A stretch of DNA of 64,000 nt from Hydrogenimonas urashimensis (GTDB lineage Bacteria > Campylobacterota > Campylobacteria > Campylobacterales > Hydrogenimonadaceae), in assembly GCF_016593255.1 (NCBI RefSeq), contig NZ_AP023212.1, forward strand, positions 558,001-622,000. Direction: 5' to 3'. Below are positions 14,146 to 50,770 of the stretch, piece by piece. The notes beneath the pieces were generated by a model. That model did not search any database and was not told where the DNA came from. It saw nothing but the letters and a program-made list of their open reading frames with translations. Position 1 is the first letter of the stretch, and each line of letters starts with the position of its first letter. The translations under genes were made by a program, and so were the position numbers.

Positions 14146-14325
14146 TTATTTTCTTTTTGACAAAAACGGTCGGTGTTTGGAGGCATTTTTCTTTTTTCGG
14201 GCAGAGACGATGCCGCTGCCATAGAACTGCTCTTCCTCCCTTTGGCCGTTTTTTGCATCTTTGATTGGCATGATTTTCAATTTGATCGTACCGTTTGCAT
14301 AACATTCGTATCCGACCACTTCCAT
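14146..14325 (-). CDS. Small hypothetical protein (59 aa)
   Basis: A short frame beginning MEVVGYECYANGTIKLKIMP with a very strong ribosome-binding site (GGAGGAGG, 3-4 bases upstream of the ATG). The C-terminus is strongly basic. A longer frame upstream has no ribosome-binding site and atypical composition, so I use the ATG at 14325. No family is recognised. The last codons fall inside an inverted repeat (ACCGTT/AACGGT around 14140-14172). Confidence 0.5.
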   Translation of the reverse strand: MEVVGYECYANGTIKLKIMPIKDAKNGQREEEQFYGSGIVSARKKKNASKHRPFLSKRK

Positions 14326-14545
14326 ATCCTCCTCCTTTTTTCGTTTCGACACAAGAATAGCCACAATCCTGTCTGTCGAAATTCGCACAAGCGTGTGCGT
14401 CCTGGGGCAAGCGGGTATTGCATACGAGAGGTTGGAGGCCACATGTTATGTTTTCGCCTATGAACCCAAACTATTCATGGCTCTTTGACACAACACCTAT
14501 ATAATACCATTTTTTCCTGCGGATATCTGTCAGCCAGATAACACT

Positions 14546-15250
14546 TCAGAGAGTCGCCATTCTCCCCAAATCGGTTTTCCCAAGCAGGTGCAGTGTTTCG
14601 TCGAATTCATAGACGATCGGTTTTGCGGTGGGTATCTCCACTTTGACGATCTGCATGGGTGTCAAATGCTCGATCGCCATGACAAGGGCTCGCAGCGAAT
14701 TGCCGTGTGCACTCACCAGGACCGTTTTGCCAAGAGCCAGTTGCGGCGCGATCCTTTCGACAAAATAGTTGAGTGTACGCTTGCGGGTATCTTTCAGCGA
14801 TTCGCCGCGAGGCAGAAGCTGCGGATCGATTTTCCGATACTTCGGATCACTCTCCGCAAGACGCGGATCACCCTCCTTCAACGGCGGCGGCGGGGTGTCA
14901 TAACCCCGTCTAACGGCGAGGAATCTCTCCTCTCCCACCTCTTTTTTTATCTCCTCTTTGTTGTGCCGCTGCCAGGCACCGTAATGACGTTCATTGAGTT
15001 TCCAGTGTTTGATGCAATCGATATGTTCCCATGCCATCTCCTTCATGACGATCTGAGCCGTATGGATAGCCCGCCTGAGCCACGAAGCAAAACAGATATC
15101 CGGATAGAGCCGGTACCGTTTCAGAATTTCACCGGCCTCCCGTGCCTCGGCAAGACCCCGTTCGCTCAGATCGATATCGGTCCAGCCGGTGAAGAGATTC
15201 TCCCGGTTATAAAGGCTCTCTCCGTGACGCAGCAGGATCATTTTTCCCAT
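14546..15250 (-). CDS. gpmA: 2,3-bisphosphoglycerate-dependent phosphoglycerate mutase
   Basis: Histidine phosphatase-fold mutase interconverting 3- and 2-phosphoglycerate (234 residues). It has the phosphohistidine motif LLRHGESLYNRENLFTGW, the WRRAIHT-type segment (ASWLRRAIHTAQIV), LNERHYG and VSAHGNSLRAL. The start at 15250 lies inside the glgP 3' end (13-base overlap). The ATG at 15241 is a possible alternative. It lies downstream of eno and glgP, so two adjacent glycolytic steps are encoded together. Confidence 0.93.
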   Translation of the reverse strand: MGKMILLRHGESLYNRENLFTGWTDIDLSERGLAEAREAGEILKRYRLYPDICFASWLRRAIHTAQIVMKEMAWEHIDCIKHWKLNERHYGAWQRHNKEEIKKEVGEERFLAVRRGYDTPPPPLKEGDPRLAESDPKYRKIDPQLLPRGESLKDTRKRTLNYFVERIAPQLALGKTVLVSAHGNSLRALVMAIEHLTPMQIVKVEIPTAKPIVYEFDETLHLLGKTDLGRMATL

Positions 15251-17373
15251 GAGAGGCACACTTTCGAAATGGGGATGTAGAACTTCCGCAGATAATCTTT
15301 CATCATGCGCCGGCCGCTGAATGCGGGGGCGATGCTTTTGATCGAAGCTTTCATCCGGCCGATCCATTCTGCAGGGTAGTGGTGCTCGTCGATCGAGTAA
15401 TAGAGAGGAACGATCTCTTTTTCGATGATGTCGTACAGGACAGAAGCATCGGCCGCATCATCGGAGATGTCACCGCCGAACGCCCAGCCGTTTTCGCCGT
15501 TGTAGCCTTCGGGCCACCACCCGTCGAGTACCGAGCAGTGCAGCGTTCCGTTGATCGCCGCTTTCATGCCACTGGTGCCGCATGCCTCCATCGGAACGAG
15601 CGGATTGTTGAGCCAGACATCGCAGCCGCGCACCAGGTATTTGGCGACATTTTCGCCGTAATCCTCGACAAAGGCGATACGCCCTCTAAACCGCGGATCC
15701 TGAGCCACCTTGAATATGCGCTGGATGATCTGTTTGCCGGGCGTATCGGCCGGATGGGCCTTCCCGGCGAAAATGATCTGAACCGGCCGGGCGAAATTGT
15801 CGATGATTTTCTCCAGACGATCCAGGTCGTGCAGAATCAGGTCGGGACGTTTGTATTCCGTCATGCGCCGTGCGAAACCTATCGTCAGAACATCGGGATC
15901 GAGCATCACCCCTTCGGCCATCGCCACGACCGGATCGATACCCTCGTCGGACCATTTGCGGCGCACCCGCTCGCGGATAAAATTGACCATTCGTACTTTG
16001 TAGGTGTAGTGCAGGCGCCAGATCGTCTCGTCGTCGATTTCATCTATCCGCGACCATAGATCGCGGTTGTCCTGCATGTTGAGCCAGTTTTCTCCCAGTA
16101 CGTGGTCCAGCTCTTCTGTCAGTTCATCCCCCAGCCATGTCGAGAGGTGCACCCCGTTGGTCACGTAGTCGATCGGTACGTGTTGGGCACTTTCGCGGTC
16201 GAATACGTTTTTCCATATGCGTCTTGTCACGTCGCAGTGCTTTTTGCTGACGGCATTGCGGTGATTGCACATCTTCAGGCCGAATACCGTCATGTTGAAA
16301 CCCGATCCCGTGGCATCGGGATTGATGCCAAAATCCATGAAACGCTCCCTGTCCATCCCAAGGCGTTTCCAGTAATCCTCGAAATAGTGGCTCATCATAT
16401 CGAAGCTGTAGACATCCGTAGCGGCCTGCAGGGGTGTATGGGTCGTGAACACGGAAGTCTCTCTCACCTTCTCTATCGCATCGTCGAGTGAGAATCCCTC
16501 GTTTTCGATAAAACTCCGTACCCGTTCGAAAAGAGCGAAGGCAGGATGTCCTTCGTTCAGATGGAGGATGCTGTATTCGATGCCCAGCTTTTCAAGTACA
16601 CGGTACCCCCCGATGCCCAGCACGATCTGCTGGCGAAGCCGTTGGTTCATGTCCGGCGTATAGAGATGCGACGAAATCTGGCGGTCCCAGGGATCGTTCT
16701 GTTTTATATCGGTATCGAGCAGATAGAGTCTCACCCGTCCCACATTGACTTTCCAGACAGATGTATAGACCGGCGGGTCGATAAAGGGTACCTGGATCGT
16801 GAAATGGTTGCCATCTTTGTCGAGTACCCGTTCAATGGGTGCCCTGTCCTTGTCGATCGTCTCGTTGGCACCGTTTTGCCATCCGTCGCTTCCGATGATC
16901 TGGCGTACATATCCTTCCGGATACATGAAACCGATACCCACCATCGGCAATCCCATATCGCTCGACTCTTTCAAAATGTCACCGGCCAGGAAGCCGAGCC
17001 CGCCCGAATAGATGGGCAGCGAATGGTGTAGACCGTATTCGGCGCAGAAGTAGGCGATGGGCAGAGGCTCCTCTTTGCTGTAGACTGTCGTGTCGTCCAT
17101 ATACTGCCTGAAAAGCGCATAGACATAACGGTATTCACGCATGAAACCTTCGTTTTGAACCAGTGCCTGCAGCCGTTTTTGGGAGAGTTTTTTCAAAAGT
17201 TCGATCGGATTCTGACCGCTCTCTTTCCACAGATAGGGATTGATGAGTCTGAAAAGATTTTTTCCAGGCGGATTCCATGTCCACCAGAGGTTGAGTGCGA
17301 TTTCGCCGAGTCCCGCTATCTCCCCGGGCAGCTCGGGAATGGCAATATTGGCGGAAGGATCACGTCCCGGCAT
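15238..17373 (-). CDS. glgP: Alpha-glucan (glycogen) phosphorylase
   Basis: GT35-family phosphorylase that releases glucose 1-phosphate from alpha-1,4-glucans (711 residues). It belongs to the shorter, ungapped bacterial/archaeal type rather than the roughly 815-residue GlgP of enterics. Visible motifs are AYFCAEYGLHHSLPIYSGGLG near the N-terminus, LHLNEGHPAF, and the PLP-binding EACGTSGMKAAINGT. The start is 2 bases after the enolase stop. Its position between eno and gpmA links glycogen use to lower glycolysis. Confidence 0.9.
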   Translation of the reverse strand: MPGRDPSANIAIPELPGEIAGLGEIALNLWWTWNPPGKNLFRLINPYLWKESGQNPIELLKKLSQKRLQALVQNEGFMREYRYVYALFRQYMDDTTVYSKEEPLPIAYFCAEYGLHHSLPIYSGGLGFLAGDILKESSDMGLPMVGIGFMYPEGYVRQIIGSDGWQNGANETIDKDRAPIERVLDKDGNHFTIQVPFIDPPVYTSVWKVNVGRVRLYLLDTDIKQNDPWDRQISSHLYTPDMNQRLRQQIVLGIGGYRVLEKLGIEYSILHLNEGHPAFALFERVRSFIENEGFSLDDAIEKVRETSVFTTHTPLQAATDVYSFDMMSHYFEDYWKRLGMDRERFMDFGINPDATGSGFNMTVFGLKMCNHRNAVSKKHCDVTRRIWKNVFDRESAQHVPIDYVTNGVHLSTWLGDELTEELDHVLGENWLNMQDNRDLWSRIDEIDDETIWRLHYTYKVRMVNFIRERVRRKWSDEGIDPVVAMAEGVMLDPDVLTIGFARRMTEYKRPDLILHDLDRLEKIIDNFARPVQIIFAGKAHPADTPGKQIIQRIFKVAQDPRFRGRIAFVEDYGENVAKYLVRGCDVWLNNPLVPMEACGTSGMKAAINGTLHCSVLDGWWPEGYNGENGWAFGGDISDDAADASVLYDIIEKEIVPLYYSIDEHHYPAEWIGRMKASIKSIAPAFSGRRMMKDYLRKFYIPISKVCLSWEK

Positions 17374-17375
17374 CT

Positions 17376-18653
17376 CTATTTCCAGTAATAAAGCGCGTTG
17401 GATTGCAGCAGATCTTCTATTTCAAGCAATCGGTTGTACTTGGCGAGTCTCTCGCTGCGGGATGCCGATCCGGTTTTCAGATGGCCGCTTCCCATCGCCA
17501 CGGCGAAATCCGCCAGGAAGGTATCGGACGTTTCGCCCGACCGGTGCGAAAGAAAGGCACGCCACCCGTTTTCAAGACAGAGGCGCACCGCATCGACCGT
17601 TTCGGTAACCGTACCGATCTGATTGAGTTTGATCAGCGAGGCATTTGCCGCATGTTCCCGAATGCCGCGGCGAATGAATTTTGTATTGGTAACGAAAATA
17701 TCGTCGCCGACGACTTCGATTTTGTCACCAAGCTCTTTCGTAAACTTTTCAAACCCTTCCCAATCCTCTTCGGCCAGCGGGTCTTCCCAAAGAACGATCG
17801 GATACTTTTCGACCCACCGTTTGGCAAGATCGATCATTTCGTCACTCGACAAAATGCCGCCACCCGACCACTTCAGATCGTATTGTCCTTTTTTGTCCAC
17901 GACGAAAGATGTCGCGGCACTGTCGATGGCGATGGAGATATCGACACCCGGTTCGTAACCCGCTTTTTCGATCGCTTCGATGATCAGATCCATCGCCTCT
18001 TCGTTGCTTCCGAGATTGGGGGCGAATCCGCCTTCGTCCCCCACCGCTGTCGCATACCCCCTGGCTTCGAGTATCTTTTTGAGTGTATGGAACGTTTCGG
18101 CCACGTACCGCAGTCCTTCGGAAAAGGTGGGTGCACCGAGCGGCACCGCCATGAATTCCTGAAAATCGACACTGTTGTCGGCATGCTCACCGCCGTTGAG
18201 AATGTTCATACAAGGAACCGGGATTCTCCGCGCTTCCGAACCGCCGAGATAGCGGTAGAGTTCGGTTCCCTGACTTTCGGCCGCCGCCTTCGCGACCGCC
18301 ATCGAGACACCGAGTATCGCGTTGGCGCCCAGGCGCGCTTTGTTTTCGGTTCCGTCGAGCTCGATCATGAGGCGATCGATCATTGCCTGCTCTGTGGCAT
18401 CGAGCCCAACGACCTCCGGTGCGATGATTTCATTGACGTTTTTGCACGCCTGCAGCACCCCCTTGCCGTTGTAGCGGTCAGGATCGCCGTCGCGCAGCTC
18501 CACCGCCTCAAACTCGCCCGTACTGGCCCCTGATGGCACCGATGCGCTCGCTTTCGTGCCATCTTCAAGCGTAACGAATACGCGAACCGTGGGGTTTCCC
18601 CGTGAATCCAGAATTTCGATCGCTCTGAGCGATGCAATGTTGCTTTTCGACAT
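17376..18653 (-). CDS. eno: Enolase
   Basis: 425-residue enolase (2-phosphoglycerate to phosphoenolpyruvate). It shows ARGNPT-type N-terminal residues ([11 protein letters not shown]), [10 protein letters not shown], the Mg-binding acidic residues in EDPLAEEDW and the [11 protein letters not shown] loop. Length and motifs are normal. The ATG is preceded by AAAAAGGAGC. It lies 30 bases after the Crp/Fnr gene and 2 bases before glgP, so the regulator, eno, glgP and gpmA may form one transcript. Confidence 0.96.
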
Positions 18654-18683: not shown

Positions 18684-19382
18684 TCAAAGATTATAGCGTT
18701 TCGCCAGTTCCTCCAACTTTTTCACGGCCAAATATCCGCGTTTGTAGAGAATGATTTCATCCTCTTTGAGTTTTCGCAGCTGCGCCGTTACGACAGAACG
18801 GACCGAGCCAATCATTTCGGCAAGAAGTTCATGGGAAAGATTATTGATGATTTTTACCGGATAATGATTTTCACCACTCTTTTTTTCCTTTTCCGTATGC
18901 CTGAGAATCAGCTTGGCAAGCCTTGTTGCGGTATCGTCGAAAACGACGGTTTCGGCGAAAGATTCGAGATGTCGCATCAGTTTTCCGATATAGGGAAGAA
19001 AACGTTCATTCAGTTCGGGATAGGTTTCCAGCCAGTTGCGTGCCGTCGCCATAGGCACTCTCAGCATATAGGTATCCGATACGGCGACAGGCGAAGCGAT
19101 ATGTTTTTGGCCATCAAGAAGAGACAGAACATCGAACACATCCCCCTCTTTGAGAAGAAAGATGACGATGCTCCGGCCACTGTGGGGATCGGTCTGCATC
19201 AGTTTGACACGCCCCTGCACGACAATATTGAAGGTCTCGATACCTTCGTCGTTGTCGATATCCATCGACTTTTTCCAGAATGTCAAACGGCACGCCGAAA
19301 CGATTTTGTCCAGTTCCTGAAAATCGAGACCACTGAAGAGTTCCGACTTGCCAAGGATATCGCATACCATTTCGTGAGTCAT
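18684..19382 (-). CDS. Crp/Fnr-family transcriptional regulator
   Basis: 232-residue regulator with an N-terminal cyclic-nucleotide-binding-type beta barrel and a C-terminal winged helix-turn-helix (LLAEMIGSVRSVVTAQLRKL). There is no FNR-type N-terminal cysteine cluster, and the recognition helix has Ser where CRP has the key Glu, so its site should differ from both. The start at 19382 has AAGGA 8 bases upstream and overlaps the stop of the preceding gene (ATGA). A CRP-spaced inverted repeat at 19971-19988 upstream of the two-gene unit is a candidate autoregulatory operator. Confidence 0.88.
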   Translation of the reverse strand: MTHEMVCDILGKSELFSGLDFQELDKIVSACRLTFWKKSMDIDNDEGIETFNIVVQGRVKLMQTDPHSGRSIVIFLLKEGDVFDVLSLLDGQKHIASPVAVSDTYMLRVPMATARNWLETYPELNERFLPYIGKLMRHLESFAETVVFDDTATRLAKLILRHTEKEKKSGENHYPVKIINNLSHELLAEMIGSVRSVVTAQLRKLKEDEIILYKRGYLAVKKLEELAKRYNL

Positions 19383-19903
19383 TCCGGCCATCCTTGAGAA
19401 ATTTCGGAACGTAAGGAGCCCTCTTCTGTCGTTGTTTCAATCTCGAGAAGATTGCGGTAGGTGAACAGGAGAGTACTGAAATGGGCAAATCCGTTCTTCG
19501 CTTTTTCCATCGTCGCTTTCTCTATCATCGGCCTGGAAAAGAGTGCGTTGTACCGTTTCAAGCCCTCAAGTGCCGCACGGAAGCACTCTTCGTACACCAT
19601 GCTTTTGCCGTCGAATCCGATCAGAACATTCGGGTCTGTGTCGTCTAACATGCCGATTTTTTCAAACTCTTTGCGCAAAACGCATCTAAGATGGTTGTCG
19701 ATACATTCTATCATACTCTCGGCAAAATCGTTTACAGTCTCTCTTTTTTCGATATCGTTTCCTTCCAGATTTTCATGCAGTCTGACGAGGATATCGAAGC
19801 AAAAACCTTCCTCGACACGGCCGTGTTCAATGCTCGAGAAAAAAAGATACCTAAAATCCCTGTAGATCTGTGTCGATATCTCTTTGAAGATGCGAATGTT
19901 CAT
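19379..19903 (-). CDS. Hypothetical helical cytoplasmic protein upstream of the Crp/Fnr gene
   Basis: About 174 residues, predicted mostly alpha-helical with no membrane segment (starts MNIRIFKEISTQIYRDFRYL). I recognise no family. The start at 19903 has AAGGCG about 6 bases upstream. The in-frame ATG at 19930 would leave an 8-base leader from the predicted transcription start and has no ribosome-binding site. The stop overlaps the Crp/Fnr start, so it is likely a partner or modulator of that regulator. The ORF could be extended further upstream, but that part crosses the promoter. Confidence 0.65.
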   Translation of the reverse strand: MNIRIFKEISTQIYRDFRYLFFSSIEHGRVEEGFCFDILVRLHENLEGNDIEKRETVNDFAESMIECIDNHLRCVLRKEFEKIGMLDDTDPNVLIGFDGKSMVYEECFRAALEGLKRYNALFSRPMIEKATMEKAKNGFAHFSTLLFTYRNLLEIETTTEEGSLRSEISQGWPE

Positions 19904-19944
19904 CTTTTTCGCCTTTTTCAAAACTCTCATTTGAAAATTCGTTA

Positions 19945-19950
19945 ATGATA
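19945..19950 (-). promoter_or_regulatory. -10 element of the hypothetical-Crp/Fnr unit
   Basis: TATCAT on the minus strand, predicting a transcription start near 19938. The inverted repeat at 19971-19988 is then centred near -41.5, the class II activator position for Crp/Fnr proteins. Confidence 0.45.
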
Positions 19951-19970
19951 ACAAAACGGAAACTCTTTTT

Positions 19971-19988
19971 ATGTCAGCTGACTGACAT
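19971..19988. promoter_or_regulatory. CRP/FNR-like inverted repeat operator
   Basis: ATGTCAG-CTGA-CTGACAT, a perfect 7+7 inverted repeat. Written as half-sites it is TGTCA-N6-TGACA, the half-site length and spacing of CRP-family operators. It lies between the divergent hypothetical/Crp-Fnr unit and the DUF389 operon. It is about 90 bases upstream of a TACAAT at 20078-20083 that could serve DUF389. Confidence 0.5.
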
Positions 19989-20121: not shown

Positions 20122-21987
20122 ATGTCTTCACCCATTATTTTGCTGCATGACCACCGGTTTGAAAAAGCGCACCTCGATGAGCTTTCAAAGAAAATAGAGG
20201 AAACGACGTCGCGACCGGTGGAGAGGCACATCTTCAAAAAAAGAAAGAAAAATTTCCCCGACGGCTCTTTGATTTTCGTTGTGGTTCCCGACGAAGAGTT
20301 CAGGGAGTGGCTGCTACACATAGGCGACCTTGATGTGACGATCGTTCTGATACCCTACGAGCACAATCCCCTTCAGCAGGCTTCCTACGCCATTCCCAAC
20401 AAGGCCGAGGAGGCAATAGCACTGGCGATTTCCGAATCCGCCGGAAAGATCAGCTCCCATATTCGGTGCGACGGCAAACCCGTCATCGGATGCGTTACGG
20501 TGGGCGCTTCCCGCTGGCTCGAACGTGCGGGCATCGTTGAAACAGTGCGAAGACTCTTCTCGATGCGTTTGCGAACCTTCCATATAAAAACGGCGAAAGA
20601 GCAGGAGATCAAAACGGCCGCCCTGATGATCGAAGCGGGAGACGAGTCGCTGCTGAACAGAAAACGATCCTATTTTTTCAAAGCATCAGACAATCAGTGC
20701 CGGCGAGTAGCCGCCGTCATCTACGCCCCTCAGAGTATCGTGGGTGCTCTGAAACTACGGCTTTTTCTGGCCAACAAAAAACGCGAGGAGGCCGAGAACC
20801 TGCCACCGGGTATCGGCACGCTGAAAACCGAAACGCTGACAATAACCTCTCCCGACAACCAACCTTTCCCCTTCGCATACGACGGCAAAACGGAAAGGAA
20901 GCGAACCCTTGTCATCGAGAGTGTACCGATGAAAGCCGCCATTCTTACGGGTGCCAGCTGCGTGGGCGGCGAAGAGAAGGAGAGCGTACGGATACAGAAT
21001 CTCCCCACCGACAGCGATGCGATCGGCTTTTTCTCGAAAAAGCCGCTGCCGCTCGTACCGATCGCCGACGAAAGCGCTTTCGCCGAACTTTTCAAAAAAC
21101 TCCGCGATTCGGCGAAGATCCGGCGCGCCTATCTGATACTGCTGCTTGTAAGCATTTTCATGGCGGCTGTCGGCCTCTTTCAGAACTCCTCACCCACCAT
21201 TATCGGTGCGATGATTCTTGCCCCGCTCATGGGTCCCATCATCGCCTTTTCGATGGGGGCTATCCGTTTCGACGAAGCGCTGATGAAAAACAGCATCAAA
21301 ACCGTTCTCTTTTCTGTTTTCCTCGGTCTGGCCGCTTCGGCATGGATCGCATGGTCCATGCCTTTTGCTCACCTGACCGACCAGATGGCGATGCGAACCC
21401 ATCCCACCCTGCTCGATCTCGCCGTCGCCATCTTCGCGGGCATCGCAGCCGCCTACGGCTACGCAAACTCAAAGGTCGGGGAAAGTCTCGCCGGTGTCGC
21501 CATCGCCGTGGCGCTCGTACCGCCGCTGTGTGTTTCTGGCATCGGCATAGGCTGGGGGTCCTGGAGCATCTTTTCCAATGCGCTTCTTCTTTTTCTCGCA
21601 AACATCGTCGGCATCGTCGTCGCCTCCGGCGCCATGTTCTATCTGATGGGATACGCATCAAGAAAATACGTATCCACCGCCTTTTTCATCAAGTTGATGA
21701 TGGTGGCGGTGATCGCCATCCCTCTTTGGCTCTCGACTCGCACACTCCTGGCCGAAGAGCACATCTACAGCGAATTTTCGCAGATCAAACGCATCGAACT
21801 GCCGAAAAAACGGGTTCAGATCCAACTTTCGCGAATTCTGCACAAAGAGGAAGGCACTTTTGCCGTCGTCACAATCACCGCCCACAACGGTCTGACGCCT
21901 GAGGAGAAATCTCTCATCGCCCGGCAGATCAAGACGAAGCTGGGAGAGAATGTGGGTCTGATATTCAATTTCAGGGAAATCTACTGA
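20122..21987 (+). CDS. DUF389 (TIGR00341-type) membrane protein with kinase-like N-terminal region
   Basis: 621 residues. The first roughly 330 residues are soluble and resemble the diacylglycerol-kinase-like catalytic fold seen fused to some DUF389 proteins (GCVTVGASRW and KAAILTGASCVGG segments). The rest is the DUF389 membrane domain with about six helices and the SSPTIIGAMILAPLMGPIIA signature. Function is unknown for the family. A C-terminal soluble tail of about 70 residues follows the last helix. The stop overlaps the mscS start by one base (TGATG). Confidence 0.85.
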   Translation: MSSPIILLHDHRFEKAHLDELSKKIEETTSRPVERHIFKKRKKNFPDGSLIFVVVPDEEFREWLLHIGDLDVTIVLIPYEHNPLQQASYAIPNKAEEAIALAISESAGKISSHIRCDGKPVIGCVTVGASRWLERAGIVETVRRLFSMRLRTFHIKTAKEQEIKTAALMIEAGDESLLNRKRSYFFKASDNQCRRVAAVIYAPQSIVGALKLRLFLANKKREEAENLPPGIGTLKTETLTITSPDNQPFPFAYDGKTERKRTLVIESVPMKAAILTGASCVGGEEKESVRIQNLPTDSDAIGFFSKKPLPLVPIADESAFAELFKKLRDSAKIRRAYLILLLVSIFMAAVGLFQNSSPTIIGAMILAPLMGPIIAFSMGAIRFDEALMKNSIKTVLFSVFLGLAASAWIAWSMPFAHLTDQMAMRTHPTLLDLAVAIFAGIAAAYGYANSKVGESLAGVAIAVALVPPLCVSGIGIGWGSWSIFSNALLLFLANIVGIVVASGAMFYLMGYASRKYVSTAFFIKLMMVAVIAIPLWLSTRTLLAEEHIYSEFSQIKRIELPKKRVQIQLSRILHKEEGTFAVVTITAHNGLTPEEKSLIARQIKTKLGENVGLIFNFREIY

Positions 21988-41203: not shown

Positions 41204-42112
41204 TCAGTTTTTTAAAATTTTCACTGCGTCTTCGACACTGCGGTTTTCGCAGGTGATCGCATAAATGGCATCGGCCATCTTCACCGCTTCTTCCAACGGA
41301 CGCTGGTGAATGTTGCGTCCCGTGCCGTTGCCACGGCTGCGGCCGATATGTATCTGATCGTACAACTGGCGGAGGAAGACGCTCTCATCGATCTTGGATC
41401 CCCCTTCGCACAATACACCGGTACGTCCCGCCGCCTGGGTCGCCTCCTGCAGCAACGCCGCGTCCGCTTCACCGTCTGTGGCATAGGACACCTTGACCTT
41501 GGCGAAGTCGGCACCCAGACAGGCGGCCACGCCCGCCGCTCCGGCGATCAGGTGGGGATCGTGCTGGTTTTTGACATAGGGCCCTTTGGGATACATCCAA
41601 AGCACCGCCAGCATGCCGTGTTCATGCGCTTCGTGTACGATTCGTGCCGCTTCGCGCAACATGGCATGCTCATGCTCGCCGCCCAGATAGACCGTATAAC
41701 CGACACCGCGGATATCCAGGCCGCTGCTTTCGCGGAAACGGGCCACATCCCCCACTTCCAGCCACTGCTGGGAATAGGGGTCTTTGGCTTCGTAGGGGAC
41801 CAGATTCGTTTTGGAGTTGAGTTTCACCAGGTACGGGACATTGCGGTACTCCCGCCCATAGCGGGAAATCAACCCGAACTGGGTCGCAAAAACCCCGATC
41901 TTCGCCCGGGACGCGATCCGGAACATATGCTCCGGGTCGTTGTCCTCTTCGGGGATTCCCTCCCCATGGAAATCGTTGTTGAGATGTTCCACCTTCTGGT
42001 CGCCAGCAAAGAGCATCAACCGCCCGCTGCCGCCGGTACTCTTTTCAAAATTTTCAAGAAAAACGCCCTCTTTTTCCGCCGGTACGTCGGCCGGGAGATA
42101 TTTTGCGAACAT
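41204..42112 (-). CDS. fbaB: Archaeal-type class I fructose-bisphosphate aldolase
   Basis: 302-residue DhnA/FbaB-type aldolase of the TIM-barrel fold. The Schiff-base lysine lies in the ADFAKVKVSYATDG segment, and the phosphate-binding residues are near VLCEGGSKI. It acts in glycolysis/gluconeogenesis without a metal. The start at 42112 precedes MFAKYLPADVP. It lies 28 bases after ppsA in the same direction, fitting a gluconeogenic unit PEP synthase-aldolase. Confidence 0.88.
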   Translation of the reverse strand: MFAKYLPADVPAEKEGVFLENFEKSTGGSGRLMLFAGDQKVEHLNNDFHGEGIPEEDNDPEHMFRIASRAKIGVFATQFGLISRYGREYRNVPYLVKLNSKTNLVPYEAKDPYSQQWLEVGDVARFRESSGLDIRGVGYTVYLGGEHEHAMLREAARIVHEAHEHGMLAVLWMYPKGPYVKNQHDPHLIAGAAGVAACLGADFAKVKVSYATDGEADAALLQEATQAAGRTGVLCEGGSKIDESVFLRQLYDQIHIGRSRGNGTGRNIHQRPLEEAVKMADAIYAITCENRSVEDAVKILKN

Positions 42113-42140
42113 TTTGAATCCTTTTTTTCTTTGGACACCT

Positions 42141-44558
42141 TCATTTGCGTCCCAGCTTCTCCTCCAGCTTCACCACATCCCGAATCGTGCGAAGAACGCT
42201 GTCGGGGTTGAGGCTCATGGAGTCGATGCCAAGCTTCACCAGAAACTCCGCCACTTCCGGGTAGTCGCTGGGTGCCTGGCCGCAGATGCCGCTGTGGCGA
42301 TGGTTGCGCTGACACCCTTCGACGGCCAGCTCGATCATCTTCAGTACGCCGGGGTCCCGCTCGTCGTAGTCGAAGGCGACGATTTCGCTGTCGCGGTCGA
42401 CGCCCAGGGTCAGCTGGGTCAGGTCGTTGGATCCGATGCTGAAACCGTCGAAGATTTCACTGAAAGCGTCGATCTGGATGACGTTGTTGGGAATTTCGCA
42501 CATGACGTAGATTTTGAGACCCTTCTCCCCTTTTTTCAGGCCATATTTGGCCATGGTCTCGACCACCTTTTTACCCTCTTCGACACGGCGGCAGAAGGGG
42601 ATCATCAGGATGATGTTCTCCATTCCGATCACCTCTCGGGCACGCTTCATCGCCGCGCACTCCAGGGCGAAGCCCTCTTCGTAAGCGGGATGGCTGTAGC
42701 GGGCCGCGCCGCGGAAGCCGATCATCGGGTTGTCCTCTTCGGGCTCGAAGAACTTTCCGCCCGTGAGCGTGGCGTATTCGTTGGTTTTGAAGTCACTCAT
42801 CCGTACGACGCAGGGGTTGGGGTAGACCGCCGCGGCGATGGTGGCGACCCCCTCGGAGAGGGTTTTGACGAAGAAATCCACCATATCGTCATACGCGCGG
42901 CTCAAAGTTTCCAGCTGTTCGCGGGTGGCGTCGTCGACCTTTTCGGGATGCCTCAGCGCCATCGGGTGCGCTTTGATATATTCGTTGATGATGAACTCCA
43001 TCCGCGCCAGGCCGATACCGTCCACCGGCAAAGAGGCGAGGCTGAAGGCCTGGTCCGGGTTGCCCAGGTTCATCATGATCTCGGTTTTGGGCTTGGGCAG
43101 GCCGCTTAAGTCCACCTTCTCAATCTCGAAGGGCAGGATGCCTTCATAAACGAATCCACTCTCCCCTTCGGCACAGCTGACGGTGACATCCTGGCCCGTT
43201 TCGAGGATCTTGGTCGCCCCTTCGGCACCGACGACGGCGGGAATGCCCAGTTCCCGGCTCACAATCGCGGCGTGACAGGTGCGGCCCCCTTTGTTGGTGA
43301 CGATGGCCGCGGCGGTTTTCATCACCGGCTCCCAGTCGGGGGTCGTCGTGTCGGCCACCAGGACTTCGCCTGGCTGGAACTGGTCTAGATGTTTCACGTC
43401 AGGAATATAGCGGACTTTGCCCTGGCCGATCTTGGTACCCACAGCGCGGCCGGTCACCAGGACCCTGCCCCGCTCTTTGAGATGGTAGATCTCCAGAATG
43501 TCGCCTTTTTTCTGGGATTCGACAGTCTCCGGACGGGCCTGCACCATGTAAAGATGCCCGTCTTCACCATCTTTGGCCCACTCCATATCCATCGGCTTGT
43601 GGTACCCCGCTTTTTCGGAGTAGTGGCGTTCGACCTTGATGGCGTAATCGGCCAGCACCATCACGTCGTCGTCGCTGATACAAAAACGGCTGCGTTCTTC
43701 GGGTGTCGTTTCGATGTTCTTGGTGTATTCGACCGCGATATTGTCGGTATTGAGAGTGTCGGTGAAGACCATTTTGAGCTCTTTGCTCCCAAGGCGCCGC
43801 TTCAAAACGGCACGGAAGCCCTTTTCGTAGGTCGGTTTGTGAACATAAAAACTGTCGGGATCGATGGTCCCCTGCACGACATTCTCCCCCAAGCCCCACG
43901 CCGCGTTGATGAAGACCACGTCTTTGAATCCCGTCTCGGTATCGAGGCTGAACATGACGCCGCTGGCCCCTTTGTCGGAACGCACCATTTTCATGACCAC
44001 CACACTCAGGTAGACTTTGGCCCAGTCGAAGTGGTTGTCGTGCTTGTAGTGGAGGCTGCGGTCGGTGAAGTTGGAAGCGAGGCAACGTTTGTAGGCATCC
44101 AGCAGCGCCTCGTCGCCTTGGATGTTCAGGTAGGTGTCGTTCTGCCCGGCGAAGGAGGCTTCGGGAGAGTCCTCCGCCGTGGCGGAAGAGCGAACCGCCA
44201 GAGAGAGATTTTCACCGTATTCCTCTTTGAGTTTCGCGTAATTGGCGACAATCTCCTCTTTCAGGTCGTCGGGTATTTCGGATTCGATGATCGCTTTGCG
44301 ACACGCCTCGCCCGCTTTCTGCAGCGCCTCCACATTGTCATAGTCGAGTCCGTCAAGGTATCCGTGAAGTTTCTCTTCGAGGCGGTTGGCCTGAAGATAG
44401 TGTCGGTATGCCGTGGCCGTGACAGCGAAGCCGTTGGGCACCCTGACGCCTTCTTGGGTGAGGTTGCGGTACATCTCTCCCAGCGATGCGTTTTTGCCTC
44501 CTACTTCGGGAACATCTTCGATACCGATTTCACTGAACCATCTGACATACGTGCTCAT
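42141..44558 (-). CDS. ppsA: Phosphoenolpyruvate synthase
   Basis: 805 residues, full length. It has an N-terminal ATP-grasp-type PEP/pyruvate-binding domain, the phosphohistidine swivel GGRTCHAAIVSRELG, and a C-terminal PEP-utilising barrel. The barrel shows IGSNDLTQLTLGVDRDS and the active-site Cys in SGICGQAPSDYP. It converts pyruvate and ATP to PEP, AMP and phosphate, the entry to gluconeogenesis from pyruvate. The small membrane-protein gene ends 10 bases upstream. Confidence 0.96.
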   Translation of the reverse strand: MSTYVRWFSEIGIEDVPEVGGKNASLGEMYRNLTQEGVRVPNGFAVTATAYRHYLQANRLEEKLHGYLDGLDYDNVEALQKAGEACRKAIIESEIPDDLKEEIVANYAKLKEEYGENLSLAVRSSATAEDSPEASFAGQNDTYLNIQGDEALLDAYKRCLASNFTDRSLHYKHDNHFDWAKVYLSVVVMKMVRSDKGASGVMFSLDTETGFKDVVFINAAWGLGENVVQGTIDPDSFYVHKPTYEKGFRAVLKRRLGSKELKMVFTDTLNTDNIAVEYTKNIETTPEERSRFCISDDDVMVLADYAIKVERHYSEKAGYHKPMDMEWAKDGEDGHLYMVQARPETVESQKKGDILEIYHLKERGRVLVTGRAVGTKIGQGKVRYIPDVKHLDQFQPGEVLVADTTTPDWEPVMKTAAAIVTNKGGRTCHAAIVSRELGIPAVVGAEGATKILETGQDVTVSCAEGESGFVYEGILPFEIEKVDLSGLPKPKTEIMMNLGNPDQAFSLASLPVDGIGLARMEFIINEYIKAHPMALRHPEKVDDATREQLETLSRAYDDMVDFFVKTLSEGVATIAAAVYPNPCVVRMSDFKTNEYATLTGGKFFEPEEDNPMIGFRGAARYSHPAYEEGFALECAAMKRAREVIGMENIILMIPFCRRVEEGKKVVETMAKYGLKKGEKGLKIYVMCEIPNNVIQIDAFSEIFDGFSIGSNDLTQLTLGVDRDSEIVAFDYDERDPGVLKMIELAVEGCQRNHRHSGICGQAPSDYPEVAEFLVKLGIDSMSLNPDSVLRTIRDVVKLEEKLGRK

Positions 44559-44568
44559 AGCGATCCTT

Positions 44569-44766
44569 TTACAATGTATGGGGTGGTGACATCATCACCA
44601 TGTTGAAAAAGCCGCCGAAAAGCATCCCCAACACCACGAAGATAAAATAAATGATAAACAGTGCCGGAATCGAAGCCAGCGCCAGCTTCACCATAAACCA
44701 TACCAGATCCCAAAAAGGAATCTCCAGGCCCGAAACGATCACTCTTTCTTTATCGCACTTTTCCAT
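44569..44766 (-). CDS. Small membrane protein (65 aa)
   Basis: 65 residues starting MEKCDKERVIVSGLEIPFWD, with one or two helices (FMVKLALASIPALFIIYFIFVV and GMLFGGFFN). The start at 44766 overlaps the LOG gene end by 17 bases. A longer frame upstream is inside that gene and not supported. Similar short proteins with a GLEIPFWDLVxxMVK pattern occur next to metabolic enzymes in other bacteria, as I recall; no function is known. Confidence 0.7.
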   Translation of the reverse strand: MEKCDKERVIVSGLEIPFWDLVWFMVKLALASIPALFIIYFIFVVLGMLFGGFFNMVMMSPPHTL

Positions 44767-45712
44767 GTTGCGGTTTCTCTCCTTCCGTGTAGACGCGATA
44801 GAGGTGCGTCTTTCTTTCTGTATGCCAGCCGATGATGTGCTTGAATGCCTCTTCGGCATTCTCGACAATCGTGAATATCTCCAGATCTTCGGGGGCTATC
44901 ATCCCCTCTTCGACGAGTACATCGAAATCGATGATCCTCTTCCAGTAGCGATGGCCCACGAGAACGACAGGAATTTCCGGATTCTTGCGGGTCTGCACAA
45001 GCGTCAATACTTCGAACAGCTCATCCAATGTTCCGAATCCACCGGGATAGGCCACCAGTGCCTGGGCACGAAGCATGAAATGGAGTTTTCGAATCGCGAA
45101 ATAGTGGAACTGGAAACAGAGTTCCGGGGAGATGTAGGGGTTGGGATACTGCTCATGGGGCAGATTGATATTGAGGCCGATGGTTTTCGCTCCCACATCG
45201 TAAGCACCTCGGTTGGCTGCTTCCATGATACCCGGACCGCCGCCAGTCATCAGAATGACCCGGTTGTCTTCAGGACCCGTCCCCGCTTCGCCGATCATCC
45301 GGCCAAAACGGCGGGCATCGTCGTAATAGGTGCTCATTTCCACCATCCGCTCCGCTTCGCGCAGTTCGGCCAGAAGTTTGACATTGTCCGGATCGGCATC
45401 GAGTTTTTTCTGCACCGTTTTGAAGTGTGCGAGTGCGGTTTTGCGTTCCTTGATGCGCGCACTCCCGAACACCACGATCGTATGCTGCACATCCAGGTCC
45501 GTCATGATAAGTTCGGGTTTTAGATAATCCAACTCCAGTCTCACTCCACGGGTCTCGTGGATTCTGAGAAATTCCGGATCTTCTTCCGCCAGCCGGTAGG
45601 ATGGTGAGTTCATCAGCTGTTGAACAAGCTTCAATGCTTTCGGATCTTCCGATTTCGGTTTAGGATGCTGCCAGGGCAGTTCATGCCACCTTTTTCGCCC
45701 GGTTTTTTTCAT
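44750..45712 (-). CDS. LOG-family (lysine decarboxylase-like) protein
   Basis: 320 residues. The Rossmann-like domain carries the LOG signatures MTGGGPGIMEAANRG and PGGFGTLDELFE. LOG proteins are phosphoribohydrolases of nucleoside monophosphates, releasing a base. The N-terminal 100 residues are an extension not in the minimal LOG. The ATG at 45712 has AGGAGG upstream; the longer frame has no such site. It overlaps the small membrane protein. Confidence 0.87.
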   Translation of the reverse strand: MKKTGRKRWHELPWQHPKPKSEDPKALKLVQQLMNSPSYRLAEEDPEFLRIHETRGVRLELDYLKPELIMTDLDVQHTIVVFGSARIKERKTALAHFKTVQKKLDADPDNVKLLAELREAERMVEMSTYYDDARRFGRMIGEAGTGPEDNRVILMTGGGPGIMEAANRGAYDVGAKTIGLNINLPHEQYPNPYISPELCFQFHYFAIRKLHFMLRAQALVAYPGGFGTLDELFEVLTLVQTRKNPEIPVVLVGHRYWKRIIDFDVLVEEGMIAPEDLEIFTIVENAEEAFKHIIGWHTERKTHLYRVYTEGEKPQHGKVR

Positions 45713-45754
45713 AAGACCCTCCTGTGATATGAATATTCTATCCAAATTGCCTCG

Positions 45755-45775
45755 TTTTGGTCGCAATGGCCAAAA
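45755..45775 (-). terminator. Stem-loop between ppk2 and the LOG gene
   Basis: TTTTGGTC and GGCCAAAA form an 8-bp stem (one G-T pair) with a GCAAT loop, 20 bases after the ppk2 stop. The T-rich arm precedes the loop on the plus strand, so on the minus strand no U-tract follows the stem. It may only attenuate or stabilise. Confidence 0.35.
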
Positions 45776-45795
45776 ACAGCACAACAGGCATCACT

Positions 45796-46554
45796 CTATG
45801 GCGCGATGAGTCCTTTTTCGTAACAGACGGGATCAAATTCGCACACCACATCGGTATCGTATACCAGCAGTTCGGCGTTTTTGCCAGGGTACTCCACATG
45901 GGCGAGAAAGTGTTTCATCACGTGGATGCGCGCCGTTTTTTTGTCATCGCTGTGGACCACATGCCAAGGGGCGAAGACAAAAGAGGTTTTGGCGAACATT
46001 TCGTCTCTGGCTTTGGAGTACTCTTTCCACAGTCTCTGGGCCTGCTGGTCGATGGGACTCAGTTTCCACTGTTTGAGAGGATCTTTTCGACGCTCTTCGA
46101 GCCGTTTTTTCTGCTCTTTTTTGGAGATGTCGAGGTAGTACTTGAAAAAAAGCATCTCCGAGTGGGTCAGCATCTGTTCGAAACTTCCTACCTCTTTCAT
46201 GAAGAGCCTGTGCTCTTTTTTCGTGCAGAACCCCATCACCTTCTCGACCCCTGCCCTGTTGTACCAGCTGCGGTTGAAAAAGACGATCTCCCCGCCGCTT
46301 GGCAGATGGGGAACGTACCGCTGGAAATACCACGACTTCCTGTCACGGTCGCTCGGTTTCCCCAATGCGACGATACGTGCCTCGCGGGGACTCAGATGCT
46401 CCGTGAAGCGTTTGATCGTCCCATCCTTTCCCGCGGCGTCCCGTCCTTCGAAAACGACGCATACTTTTAGATCCTTTTCGATCACATGGCGCTGGAATTT
46501 GACCAGCTCCACCTGCAAACGGTAAAGCGTTTTTTTGTAAATCCTTTTGTTCAT
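45796..46554 (-). CDS. ppk2: Polyphosphate kinase 2
   Basis: 252 residues with the PPK2 P-loop (VVFEGRDAAGKDGTIKRFTEHL), SDRDRKSWYFQRYVPHLP, the FFNRSWYNRAGVEKVMGF lid and later WKLSPID. PPK2 uses polyphosphate to phosphorylate nucleoside mono- or diphosphates; class I usually acts on diphosphates. The start at 46554 overlaps the ATPase stop (ATGA), with GAGG just upstream. This ties polyphosphate use to the proton pump. It is slightly short for the family, but no motif is missing. Confidence 0.92.
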   Translation of the reverse strand: MNKRIYKKTLYRLQVELVKFQRHVIEKDLKVCVVFEGRDAAGKDGTIKRFTEHLSPREARIVALGKPSDRDRKSWYFQRYVPHLPSGGEIVFFNRSWYNRAGVEKVMGFCTKKEHRLFMKEVGSFEQMLTHSEMLFFKYYLDISKKEQKKRLEERRKDPLKQWKLSPIDQQAQRLWKEYSKARDEMFAKTSFVFAPWHVVHSDDKKTARIHVMKHFLAHVEYPGKNAELLVYDTDVVCEFDPVCYEKGLIAP

Positions 46555-49271
46555 ATCACCTCGATTCCCAGTTTCCTGCGATAGTAGCGCAAAACCGCGA
46601 CTTTGACCACATCGTTGAATACGAACCATGTCAGTGCGTAAGCCCACATGAAAATAGCCCACTCCCACCCGATGGGCGTCATGAGTCCGAATCCATAGAC
46701 GGCGATGATTGTACCGATGATGCGTGTCGAAAATGTGGCACCGAAAAGTATCAGCGACGGCCAGGGACGTTTCCAGAACCAGTCATCGATACGGGTATTG
46801 TAGATGGTCCCGTGACCGGCGATGACCATTTTGGCGAAAAAGATCGACTGGACAAAAGCTTCGTAGCTTTTGATGTCTCCCATATCGACCCATAAAGGCA
46901 CATGGGGCAGGAAATCGGCACTTTCAGGATGCGCCTTGAGATAGACCATAACGATGTAGAAGATAAGAAAGGAGCTCAAAACGCCGGCGACTCCCAACCA
47001 GGAGGAGAGGATGAGCATCTCCCTCATGTCCCAGCGCACCGGCTTTTTTCTGATCTTCGTGTTGTCGTAGGCAATTGTCAGAATCGGAATATCGTTAAGG
47101 AGTGCGAGTACGATGATCATGACGGTCGTCAACGGATAGAACTGGAAGACGACAATAGCCAGCGTCATGAAAATCACGATACGGATTGTCTCGGCGATGC
47201 GGAATATCGTATAGCTTTTCATCCGCTCGAAAGTGACCCGGGCCTGCTCGATCGCATCGACGATCACCCGCAGTCCCGGTGCCATAAGAACGATGTCCGC
47301 CGCCGCCCGGGCCGCGTCGGTGGCTCCGCTGACGGCAATGCCACAGTCTGCCTTTTTGAGAGCGGGAGCATCATTGACGCCGTCTCCGGTCATACCCACG
47401 ATATGGTCGGCCTTCTGCAACTCGTCGACGATGAAGTATTTGTCTTCCGGAAACACCTGCGCAAAACCGTTGGCCTCTTCGATTGCGGCGATAATCTCCG
47501 ATTCGTGCCGTTTGACCGTACCCTTGGGTATCGGCATATTGTAGAGCTCACGTTTCACCTTCTTCATGATATCGCGGACGATTCGATCGATCTCGTCCTT
47601 GCTCGCATCGGGATGGAACTTTTCTGCGATGGCACGGGAGAGCACTTCGGAGAGGTAGATGTATTCGACGATCGTCTCTCCTTTGAGTTCACGGACATCT
47701 TCGATCCTCTCTCCTATGCCAAGAATTTTTGCGATATATTTCGCAACGGCGATATTGTCTCCCGTGACCATCTTGACCTCGACGCCTTTGGAGAGCGCCT
47801 CTTCGATCGCCTCTTTGCTGTCTTCCCTCGGTGGATCGAAGAGAGGAATCAACCCCACGAAATGGTAATAGTCCTCTTCGCACAGCCGATAGGCCACCCC
47901 GAGAGTCCTGAATCCTTTCTCGGCAAAGTTTTCCACTGCGTCGTAGGCCTTTTTCTTGTCGAATTCGTTTTCGTGACACTGCTCAATGATTACCTGCGGT
48001 GCGCCTTTGGTGACAACCAGGCATTTTTTGCCGTTATAAAGTCCCTCGGTCCGCTTGTGAACCGGATCGAAAGGCAGAAATTTGGTGAGTTCGTAACGCT
48101 TGAGCGCATCACGCATATTGTGTGCGTCGATGTATTCGAAAATCGGTTTTTCAATCGGATCGCGGTTTTCCTCTTTGCTGGCCAGCGCCGCATAGAGCAT
48201 CAGCTCTTCGGCCGTATGGCCGTCGGCGACGAAAGGATCGGCCAGGCTCATGCGGTTTTGGGTCAGCGTACCGGTTTTGTCAGAACAGAGAATATCCATG
48301 CCCGCCATCTCCTCGATGGCTGCCAGACGGCTGACAATCGCCTGCTTTTTCGCCAGACTCATGGCTCCTACCGCCATGGTGACGGTCAAAACCGCAGGCA
48401 GTGCCACCGGTATCGCCGAAACGGTCAAAACCAACGAAAAAGCGAGAAGTTCCAACGCATTTTCATGTCGATGAAGTCCCACAAAAATGATGATGAGAAT
48501 CATCACGACAGTCACTGCAATCAGAAAATCCCCTACACGTATCACCATTTTCTGGAAATGGCTCTGCTGCTCCCGCTCCGCTTTCGCAACAAGACCCACT
48601 GTCTTGCCGAAATAGGTATTCAAGCCTGTCGCGGTGACCTGCGCCACCATCTCTCCCTGTTTGATGACGGCATTGGCATAAAGAGTATCTCCGGCTTTGC
48701 GGGTCACAGGAAGCGATTCGCCGGTAAGTGCGGATTGATCAACCAGCAGAAAATCGCCCCCGCCGAGCAGTTTGGCATCGGCAGGCACGATATCGCCGAT
48801 TTTCACCTTGATGATGTCGCCAGGTACCACTTCACGGGCCGGAACCTGTTTCCAGACGCCTTCTCTGAGCACAAGCGCACTGCGCGCCAGTTTCTTCTTC
48901 AGCACAGCGATGGCGTTGAGGGCTTTTGTTTCCTGATAGAAATCGACGATGGCATTGACCAGGAGCATGATGAGGATGATGACGAACTCTTCGGTATGAT
49001 GAACCGCCAGAGCCATGAGACCGGCCGCTTCGATCATCCACGGGATCGGTCCCCAGAATCGTTTCAGAAGCCGGCGGAACCATCCTTCTTCCCTCTCTTC
49101 GATTTCGTTGTATCCGTACTTTTTGAGTCTTTCGGCTGCCTCCTTTTCATTCAGTCCTTTCCACTCTCCGGAAGCGACGGCAGCAGCTTCTTCGGGGCTC
49201 ATCGCGATTTGCGTTTTCGCTGGAGCTGTTTCCGTACGGTTCCTTTTTTTTCTTCGCCTTCTGTGTGACAT
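46551..49271 (-). CDS. P-type (P-IIIA, plasma-membrane type) H+-transporting ATPase
   Basis: 906 residues. It has a basic N-terminal tail (SHRRRRKKRNR), a cation-ATPase N-domain, and actuator motif DQSALTGESLPVT. The phosphorylated Asp is D331 in CSDKTGTLTQNRM, with KGAPQVI in the nucleotide domain and MTGDGVNDAPALKKADCG hinge. About 10 helices are present. There is no heavy-metal-binding domain, and the pattern follows fungal/plant proton pumps. It should build a proton gradient with ATP, or work in acid tolerance. Confidence 0.9.
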   Translation of the reverse strand: MSHRRRRKKRNRTETAPAKTQIAMSPEEAAAVASGEWKGLNEKEAAERLKKYGYNEIEEREEGWFRRLLKRFWGPIPWMIEAAGLMALAVHHTEEFVIILIMLLVNAIVDFYQETKALNAIAVLKKKLARSALVLREGVWKQVPAREVVPGDIIKVKIGDIVPADAKLLGGGDFLLVDQSALTGESLPVTRKAGDTLYANAVIKQGEMVAQVTATGLNTYFGKTVGLVAKAEREQQSHFQKMVIRVGDFLIAVTVVMILIIIFVGLHRHENALELLAFSLVLTVSAIPVALPAVLTVTMAVGAMSLAKKQAIVSRLAAIEEMAGMDILCSDKTGTLTQNRMSLADPFVADGHTAEELMLYAALASKEENRDPIEKPIFEYIDAHNMRDALKRYELTKFLPFDPVHKRTEGLYNGKKCLVVTKGAPQVIIEQCHENEFDKKKAYDAVENFAEKGFRTLGVAYRLCEEDYYHFVGLIPLFDPPREDSKEAIEEALSKGVEVKMVTGDNIAVAKYIAKILGIGERIEDVRELKGETIVEYIYLSEVLSRAIAEKFHPDASKDEIDRIVRDIMKKVKRELYNMPIPKGTVKRHESEIIAAIEEANGFAQVFPEDKYFIVDELQKADHIVGMTGDGVNDAPALKKADCGIAVSGATDAARAAADIVLMAPGLRVIVDAIEQARVTFERMKSYTIFRIAETIRIVIFMTLAIVVFQFYPLTTVMIIVLALLNDIPILTIAYDNTKIRKKPVRWDMREMLILSSWLGVAGVLSSFLIFYIVMVYLKAHPESADFLPHVPLWVDMGDIKSYEAFVQSIFFAKMVIAGHGTIYNTRIDDWFWKRPWPSLILFGATFSTRIIGTIIAVYGFGLMTPIGWEWAIFMWAYALTWFVFNDVVKVAVLRYYRRKLGIEVI

Positions 49272-49281
49272 CTTGCCTCCC

Positions 49282-50679
49282 TTACAGATAGATGTTTTCT
49301 TCCGGTGCCACGATATGGGCTTTTTTCCCCATACGTTCTTCTATGACTTTTCTGAAAATCCTCTGTTTGTCGTATTCGCCGTGAATCAGAAAAATTTTGC
49401 CCAGATTGTCGAAATGGTTCATCCAGTCGATCAATTCACTCTGGTCCGCATGGGCGGAAAAACCGTTGATCGTATGGATTGAAGCGCGCACCACCACCTC
49501 TTCGTGGTAAATGCGTATATGCCGTTCACCGTTGATGATGCGCCGTCCCAATGTCCCTTCGGCCTGATAACCGACAAAAAGCAGTGCGTTTTTTTCGTTC
49601 CAGAGACGGTGTTTGAAATGGTGAAGGATGCGTCCGCCGGTACACATGCCGCTGCCGGCGATGATGATGCAGCCGCTCTCAATGTCATTGATCTTTTTCG
49701 AATCTTCGGGTTTGAGGGTATATTTGACATAGGGAAACTCGAAAATGGTACCGTCACGTTTGAGATAGTTGTTGCACTGCCGGCTCAGCTCTTTGTGATA
49801 GGTGTCGTAAAGCCGAGTGGCACGGATAGCCATGGGTGAGTCGAGAAATACCTGACACGTCGGAAGCTCCCTGCTGTCGTACATCTGTTTGAGGATACAG
49901 AGTATCTCCTGGGTCCGCTCGATGGCGAAGGAGGGAATGAGCACGTTGCCCTGGTTGAGCAGCGTATTGACGACAACTTCTTTGAATTCCGCCACACTCT
50001 CCTGTATGCCTTTGTGGTTCCGATCGCCGTAGGTCGACTCGATGTAGAGGGCATCCGCCCCTTTCACATAAACAGGATCGGGCATCACCATATCGTTGTG
50101 ATTGCCAAGGTCACCGCTGAAAACGAGCGTTTTGGCTTCACCACCCTCGACGATATCGAGTTCGATCGTCGCCGAGTCGAGAATATGCCCCGCATTGCGG
50201 AATGTCGCTGTCACATCTTTGGCGATTTCGATGGGTTCGTCATACTTGACGAATATCATCGGCAAATCGTAGACCGCTTCCACGTCGTCAGGGGTATAGA
50301 GCGGTTCTTTGACACTCTTTTCCGCCCCTCGGCGCTGTGCTTTTCTAAAACGCGTCTGATACTCTTCCAGCATCAGATGGGCACTGTCGAGCAATACCAC
50401 CTCCGCCAGGTCCATCGTCGACTTGAGCGTGACGATGCGCCCGACAAAACCCTCTTTTACGAGTTTGGGAATGCGCCCCACATGGTCGAGATGGGCATGG
50501 GTGACAAGCAGAATATCCACATCCCGGGGATTGAAACCGAAAGGCTCGTCATTGCGATCCTCGACGGTTCCCTGGAACATTCCGCAGTCTACGAGGATTG
50601 TCGGCCCTTTTTCGATGCGCAGAAGATGGCACGAACCTGTGACAACCTCAGCCGCACCGAACGATTGAATGACAGCCAT
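49282..50679 (-). CDS. MBL-fold/beta-CASP RNA metallo-hydrolase
   Basis: 465 residues. The metallo-beta-lactamase motifs are THAHLDHVGRIPK and FSGDLGNHND, with a beta-CASP cap (VLIPSFAIERTQEIL, IIAGSGMCTGGR) and the C-terminal FSAHADQSEL. These are CPSF73/RNase J-related nucleases, so RNA processing is probable. The start at 50679 has AAAGGGG upstream; the longer ORF start is upstream of that site. It lies 10 bases before the ATPase gene. Confidence 0.9.
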   Translation of the reverse strand: MAVIQSFGAAEVVTGSCHLLRIEKGPTILVDCGMFQGTVEDRNDEPFGFNPRDVDILLVTHAHLDHVGRIPKLVKEGFVGRIVTLKSTMDLAEVVLLDSAHLMLEEYQTRFRKAQRRGAEKSVKEPLYTPDDVEAVYDLPMIFVKYDEPIEIAKDVTATFRNAGHILDSATIELDIVEGGEAKTLVFSGDLGNHNDMVMPDPVYVKGADALYIESTYGDRNHKGIQESVAEFKEVVVNTLLNQGNVLIPSFAIERTQEILCILKQMYDSRELPTCQVFLDSPMAIRATRLYDTYHKELSRQCNNYLKRDGTIFEFPYVKYTLKPEDSKKINDIESGCIIIAGSGMCTGGRILHHFKHRLWNEKNALLFVGYQAEGTLGRRIINGERHIRIYHEEVVVRASIHTINGFSAHADQSELIDWMNHFDNLGKIFLIHGEYDKQRIFRKVIEERMGKKAHIVAPEENIYL

Positions 50680-50770
50680 TTGGACCCCTTTGGTTATTAA
50701 CCGATATTTTTCATAAAACAGTTTCACAATCCACACGGGCTGCGAAACAACAGGAACAACTCTTTTTTAT

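Follow-up and report, generated by a model that had tools for sequence, protein, structure and literature searches.

The closest described counterparts of the locus analysed here are E. coli CRP at class II promoters, NtcA and CooA. The class II site of E. coli CRP reads TGTGA-N6-TCACA and is centred at -41.5. NtcA, the cyanobacterial nitrogen regulator, has sites with TGT-type halves at the same spacing, and CooA has sites with TGTCG-type halves, in which a changed residue at position 181 goes with C at base 4. The regulators of the HdeD and YfdX genes of E. coli are other proteins. In PMC11253593, CRP Arg180 is described as contacting G2, and Glu181 and Arg185 as contacting base pair 4.

The window, a stretch of 64,000 nucleotides from Hydrogenimonas urashimensis (contig NZ_AP023212.1, positions 558,001 to 622,000), carries a palindrome in front of a unit encoding a Crp-family regulator (Table 1). 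An earlier note had placed TGTCA-N6-TGACA upstream of TATCAT with its centre at about -41.5, and this was borne out, with 21 bp to the hexamer at 19950-19945 and the centre at -41.5 of a start at 19938; that +1 was set by convention 7 bases past the -10 hexamer and is unmapped. The arms extend those of the earlier note to 6+6 bases (TGTCAG/CTGACA). An operator centred near -41.5 before a -10 is the arrangement of a class II Crp-dependent promoter, given the start so assigned. Judging from sequence, we hold with a probability of about 0.82 that the palindrome serves a Crp subfamily with a regulon of its own, as a site for class II activation of the regulator's own unit.

Table 1. Coordinates of features of the crp unit and its surroundings in the window
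Feature	Position	Strand	Basis	Remarks
Operator TGTCAGTCAGCTGACA, TGTCAG-N4-CTGACA	19972..19987	-	pattern scan; kept in relatives	centre -41.5; minus-strand reading of 19987-19972, plus-strand reading TGTCAGCTGACTGACA
-10 hexamer TATCAT	19945..19950	-	spacing conserved in relatives	21 bp past operator
orfX, first gene of unit	19379..19903	-	ORF list	174 aa from ATG 19903
Crp-family regulator	18684..19391	-	Pfam cNMP_binding + HTH_Crp_2; alignment	helix GSVRSVVTAQ; overlaps orfX
eno	17376..18653	-	Pfam/NCBIfam	30 bp past crp
glgP (alpha-glucan phosphorylase)	15238..17373	-	Pfam/NCBIfam	2 bp past eno
gpmA (phosphoglycerate mutase)	14546..15367	-	Pfam/NCBIfam	listed ORF overlaps glgP
DUF389 gene	20122..21987	+	ORF list; Pfam	divergent; shares intergenic region with orfX-crp unit
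Second operator TGTTATCTGGCTGACA	14528..14543	-	matrix; imperfect counterparts in G003, G008	centre -41.5; directly behind gpmA
-10 hexamer TATTAT of second operator	14501..14506	-		inferred start 14494
59-aa ORF (MEVVGYECYANGT...)	14146..14325	-	homologues in G003, G008	downstream of second operator

The palindrome is the single perfect TGTCAN6TGACA of the window. Loose matches to this word are uninformative, since 29 sequences with up to two mismatches occur in the window against 21.2 expected. Near matches are also common in the whole genome, which holds 95 words with at most one mismatch, and to that extent the palindrome could be a chance match. First-order statistics, however, predict only 0.04 perfect copies of TGTCAN6TGACA per window and 0.002 of TGTCAG-N4-CTGACA, and across the genus the operator is kept at the same promoter position while its flanks diverge, which makes coincidence extremely improbable. 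The genome scan proposed in the earlier note did return seven perfect sites, but the six others fall within called open reading frames, and the idea of taking all genomic copies of the word as the regulon was dropped on that count.

The encoded regulator matches PF00027 with 39.8 bits (cut-off 27.5) and PF13545 with 42.9 bits (cut-off 27), and a 16-bp dyad with TGT...ACA ends lies at its own promoter, as in the Crp/Fnr family. It has GSVRSVVTAQ in place of CSRETVGRI of E. coli CRP, with RSVVTA where CRP has the RETVGR recognition helix. Arg180 is retained. Alignment with this CRP segment confirmed Ser at the position of Glu181, as had been claimed beforehand, and Arg185 is also gone, being replaced by Ala (Thr in several orthologues). 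The score for the NCBIfam cAMP-CRP equivalog PRK11753 was 29.1 bits against a cut-off of 266, that for NtcA (TIGR03697) 56.5 against 244.95, and the invariant and nearly invariant columns of an alignment of ten S-type proteins (A1; S-type denotes a recognition helix with Ser, or Thr in genome G008, at the 181 position) contain no cysteine, so that the conserved set of the Fnr-type 4Fe-4S sensors is absent. By the tests run, the regulator is a Crp/Fnr family protein other than cAMP-CRP, NtcA or an Fnr-type cysteine sensor, and cAMP is unlikely to be its signal.

Conservation in relatives had been set beforehand as the test that could refute the site, and the site withstood it. Among 18 genomes of the genus, 8 have an S-type orthologue, and all 8 carry the operator before the crp unit in exact or variant form. 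Compared with TGTCAGN4CTGACA, three of these operators are perfect, four have one mismatch and that of G002 (AGTAAGCCGGCTTACA) has three, base 4 being altered in both halves; the crp gene of G002 contains an in-frame stop. G015, outside the eight, keeps the operator next to a broken crp remnant. Stop-interrupted or shortened crp copies with a retained operator occur at L132 (G015), L129 (G390) and L133 (G002), reflecting assembly error or decay. For the order, 398 genomes were sampled by profile search and helices were read in the best-scoring loci; this helix kind was found in 26 of them (Ser in 23, Ala in G177 and G197, Thr in G008), and the other 372 count as "not found to have it", the helices of weaker matches having been read in part. 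The crp-unit operator, taken as the best match within up to 1.5 kb upstream, was present in 20 of the 26, and the distance to the -10 is kept as well. In the stretch examined, no such operator was found in the remaining six (G022, G058, G071, G095, G298 and G354), of which G058 has a version with two mismatches. Orthologues with other helices have no such site upstream in G005, G038 (about 0.6 kb searched) and G366, and only a poor site with two mismatches in G340. Together with the conserved -10 distance, conservation of the site at the crp unit gives good support to the proposal of the earlier note that the encoded Crp may control its own unit.

Promoter geometry was assessed on sites that had been collected blind to the -10, in 60 strand contexts, with TAHDMT as the strict -10 pattern. 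At 21 bp this pattern was counted 21 times and at 22 bp 19 times; no other distance from 5 to 43 had more than three. A recount gave 30 distinct sites. In 29 of them a strict -10 stands 21-22 bp away, in 11 on both strands and in 18 on one; the remaining site is that of the window, whose TATCAT departs from the pattern by one base. All 11 two-sided sites are at crp units. In G081 (L131, 2342-2357), the genes diverge from a perfectly symmetric operator, TGTCAGTTAACTGACA, which has TATAAT 21 bp away on either side. The palindrome of the window was rejected as an operator of the DUF389 gene, no good -10 lying at 20-23 bp on that side. Regulators commonly autorepress, and position alone leaves the sign of regulation unproven; the S-type Crp might therefore bind the operator as a repressor of its own unit. 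We regard such negative autoregulation as improbable, since the -10 keeps its distance of 21-22 bp across genomes from four families, as in a class II activator arrangement, whereas a repressor needs no fixed distance.

Over 20 operators, the half-site reads TGT[C23,T11,A6]AG followed by pyrimidines, which gives the fuller motif TGTHAG-YYRR-CTDACA. G is absent at base 4 in all 40 half-sites, as would be expected from the loss of the two CRP contacts to pair 4 described in PMC11253593. The claim that a changed half-site fits the changed helix thus stands as regards the loss of both contacts, but at base 4 the sites avoid G rather than require C, and base 6 is G. The agreement is partly circular, because crp operators served to derive the motif and part of the discovery patterns favoured C or barred G at base 4: those for the seven other genus sites preferred C, most others had N, and that for G390 barred G.

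The motif and the helix occur together. The exact motif TGTHAGYYRRCTDACA was found in 22 of the 398 genomes, 15 of the 26 with the helix against 7 of the 372 others; with crp operators excluded and G015 out of the denominator, the figures are 7 of 26 and 6 of 371. The seven non-helix genomes are G015 and six more, and in five of these six the motif lies in a called reading frame, once at its very start. In G265 the exact site is intergenic and has a -10, and the genome gave no match to the S-type Crp at E 1e-40. A run for operator plus -10 with up to two mismatches covered 48 hand-chosen genomes, the helix genomes G298, G354 and G390 falling outside it; counted per strand and spacing and with crp operators included, it gave 132 matches in 23 helix genomes (25 with a backward-pattern control) against 15 in 25 others (control 16). 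Six of the 15 come from G157 (4) and G167 (2), two fragmented assemblies that yielded no S-type crp and belong to g40, a genus rich in such sites. In the own genus, each S-type genome has just 1-3 such matches when the two spacings are taken together, and most of these are the crp operator.

These counts also bear on whether another factor owns the operator, such as a second Crp paralogue. One is encoded in the same genome (G000:C1:1505836-1506486, about 35% identical), and its relatives, with the helix GTVRHVVNRH, are widespread among genomes of the order. In the genus, however, the eight genomes that match the paralogue and lack an S-type crp (G005, G007, G009, G010, G012, G013, G014 and G017) have only 0-1 operator plus -10 matches each, zero in the case of G005, which has a lysine helix variant (SVRKVVNLDI). 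Ownership by such a factor seems a shade less probable even than autorepression, and the encoded S-type Crp remains our preferred owner.

Further targets beyond the crp unit are probable. The operators of 18 crp units gave a matrix, which was combined with a -10 score set by hand; scanning the window and 60 loci with it yielded 103 strand rows; some of the loci had been picked for holding such matches, and the counts describe targets, not enrichment. Downstream genes were called mechanically and then clustered, with Pfam names taken from examples. The clusters comprised first genes of crp units (10), YfdX (7), Bax1-I (7, two of them one site), DUF308/HdeD (6), EI24/CysZ (5), a Beta-Casp metallo-hydrolase (5), an unnamed protein of 74-79 aa (5), a PEP synthase type (3) and cyclopropane synthase (3), and smaller or single groups included phosphofructokinase (2), GAPDH and PDH E1. 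The cydA gene is the first gene behind a site in G167 and lies behind a small ORF in G250. Target sites of YfdX, HdeD, Bax1-like, PEP synthase, phosphofructokinase and GAPDH genes are mostly in families other than that of our genome. In the window, a minus-strand cluster at 41204-50736 encodes, by Pfam, a DeoC/LacD aldolase, a PEP synthase type, a LOG-type protein, PPK2, a P-type ATPase and a Beta-Casp hydrolase, and in relatives the operator stands before members of some of these families. No good operator scored in this 41-51 kb region, the best (12.5, at 48321) lying inside the ATPase gene. The search of genome contigs for related loci returned one distant, unhelpful locus.

In the combined matrix and -10 score, the first site of the window reached 32.1 and the second 25.1, against 12.5 for the best unrelated position. 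The second operator is also 21 bp from its -10. Homologues of the 59-aa ORF behind it in G003 (53% over 53 residues) and G008 (45% over 31) each have a site upstream with two mismatches and TATAAT, and in G008 this site stands behind glgP. In G013, where no S-type crp was found (assembly 79% complete), a 22-residue match to the ORF lies about 470 bp behind a site with two mismatches.

Consecutive genes of orfX-crp-eno-glgP-gpmA overlap or are separated by gaps of at most 30 bp. The family match of gpmA begins near 15250, and its real start probably lies there; ATG 19930 is a possible alternative start of orfX. No family was found for orfX in Pfam or NCBIfam; its AlphaFold model, built from a 9-row alignment, is all-helical (mean pLDDT 86.4), and a PDB search with it gave no match at E <= 0.001. 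In other families, a different-looking small protein with weak DUF6781 similarity takes the place of orfX between operator and crp, and hhalign gave a probability of 27% between orfX and these first genes. In G004 and G008, too, eno stands behind the S-type crp; in G001, G006 and G011 the gene behind it is of the PEP synthase type (named by eye in the last two). Neither stands behind crp in G003, where the next genes are oppositely oriented. The earlier note had raised possible control of eno-glgP-gpmA as well, which the gene spacing suggests; a weak terminator-like hairpin at the end of crp (18706-18694) counts against read-through into eno.

From the letters alone we infer the following mechanism. 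A dimer of the encoded Crp would bind the palindrome as a class II activator at -41.5, and the promoter starting at about 19938 would transcribe orfX-crp and, by read-through, eno-glgP-gpmA. The regulator would thereby raise its own level in positive autoregulation. Arg180 would read G2, as it does in CRP. Without Glu181 and Arg185 the G:C preference at position 4 would disappear, leaving specificity to TGT.AG and the YYRR centre. The second site may be driven by the same protein, which in related genera may control a regulon of PEP-node and glycolytic enzymes with membrane or stress proteins. There is perhaps an even chance that one bacterial order has here a regulator subfamily of wide action, with a DNA code and a signal of its own. 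Its symmetric operators would often serve divergent promoters in pairs, a single bound dimer activating both, and it would couple PEP-node and glycolytic enzymes to HdeD, YfdX and Bax1-like membrane and acid-type stress proteins.

For an orphan Crp-family regulator, this provides a testable DNA motif, the geometry of its promoter and a list of targets. No description of the S-type regulator or its motif was found in a search of the open-access literature. The type of switch is familiar, and the regulator and its gene set seem undescribed so far. The targets suggest one regulator for PEP carbon flow and membrane stress, a control for which no published account in these bacteria was found in the same literature.

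Among the described systems, NtcA is the best NCBIfam match of the S-type Crp, far below the cut-off. CooA shares membership of the CRP family and differs in that the S-type motif is degenerate at base 4. The DUF308/HdeD and YfdX families, known from E. coli stress genes, recur among S-type targets, here behind a Crp-type site. The likeness to E. coli CRP at class II promoters lies in the fold family, Arg180, the 16-bp dyad with TGT.A halves and the -41.5 geometry. Unlike E. coli CRP, the S-type protein has Ser for Glu181 and Ala or Thr for Arg185, the cAMP contact residues appear not to be kept (by unaligned comparison with those of E. coli), and its sites have a base other than G at position 4 and G at position 6. 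With both base-pair-4 contacts gone and base 4 free, the S-type Crp offers a natural test of the CRP recognition code.
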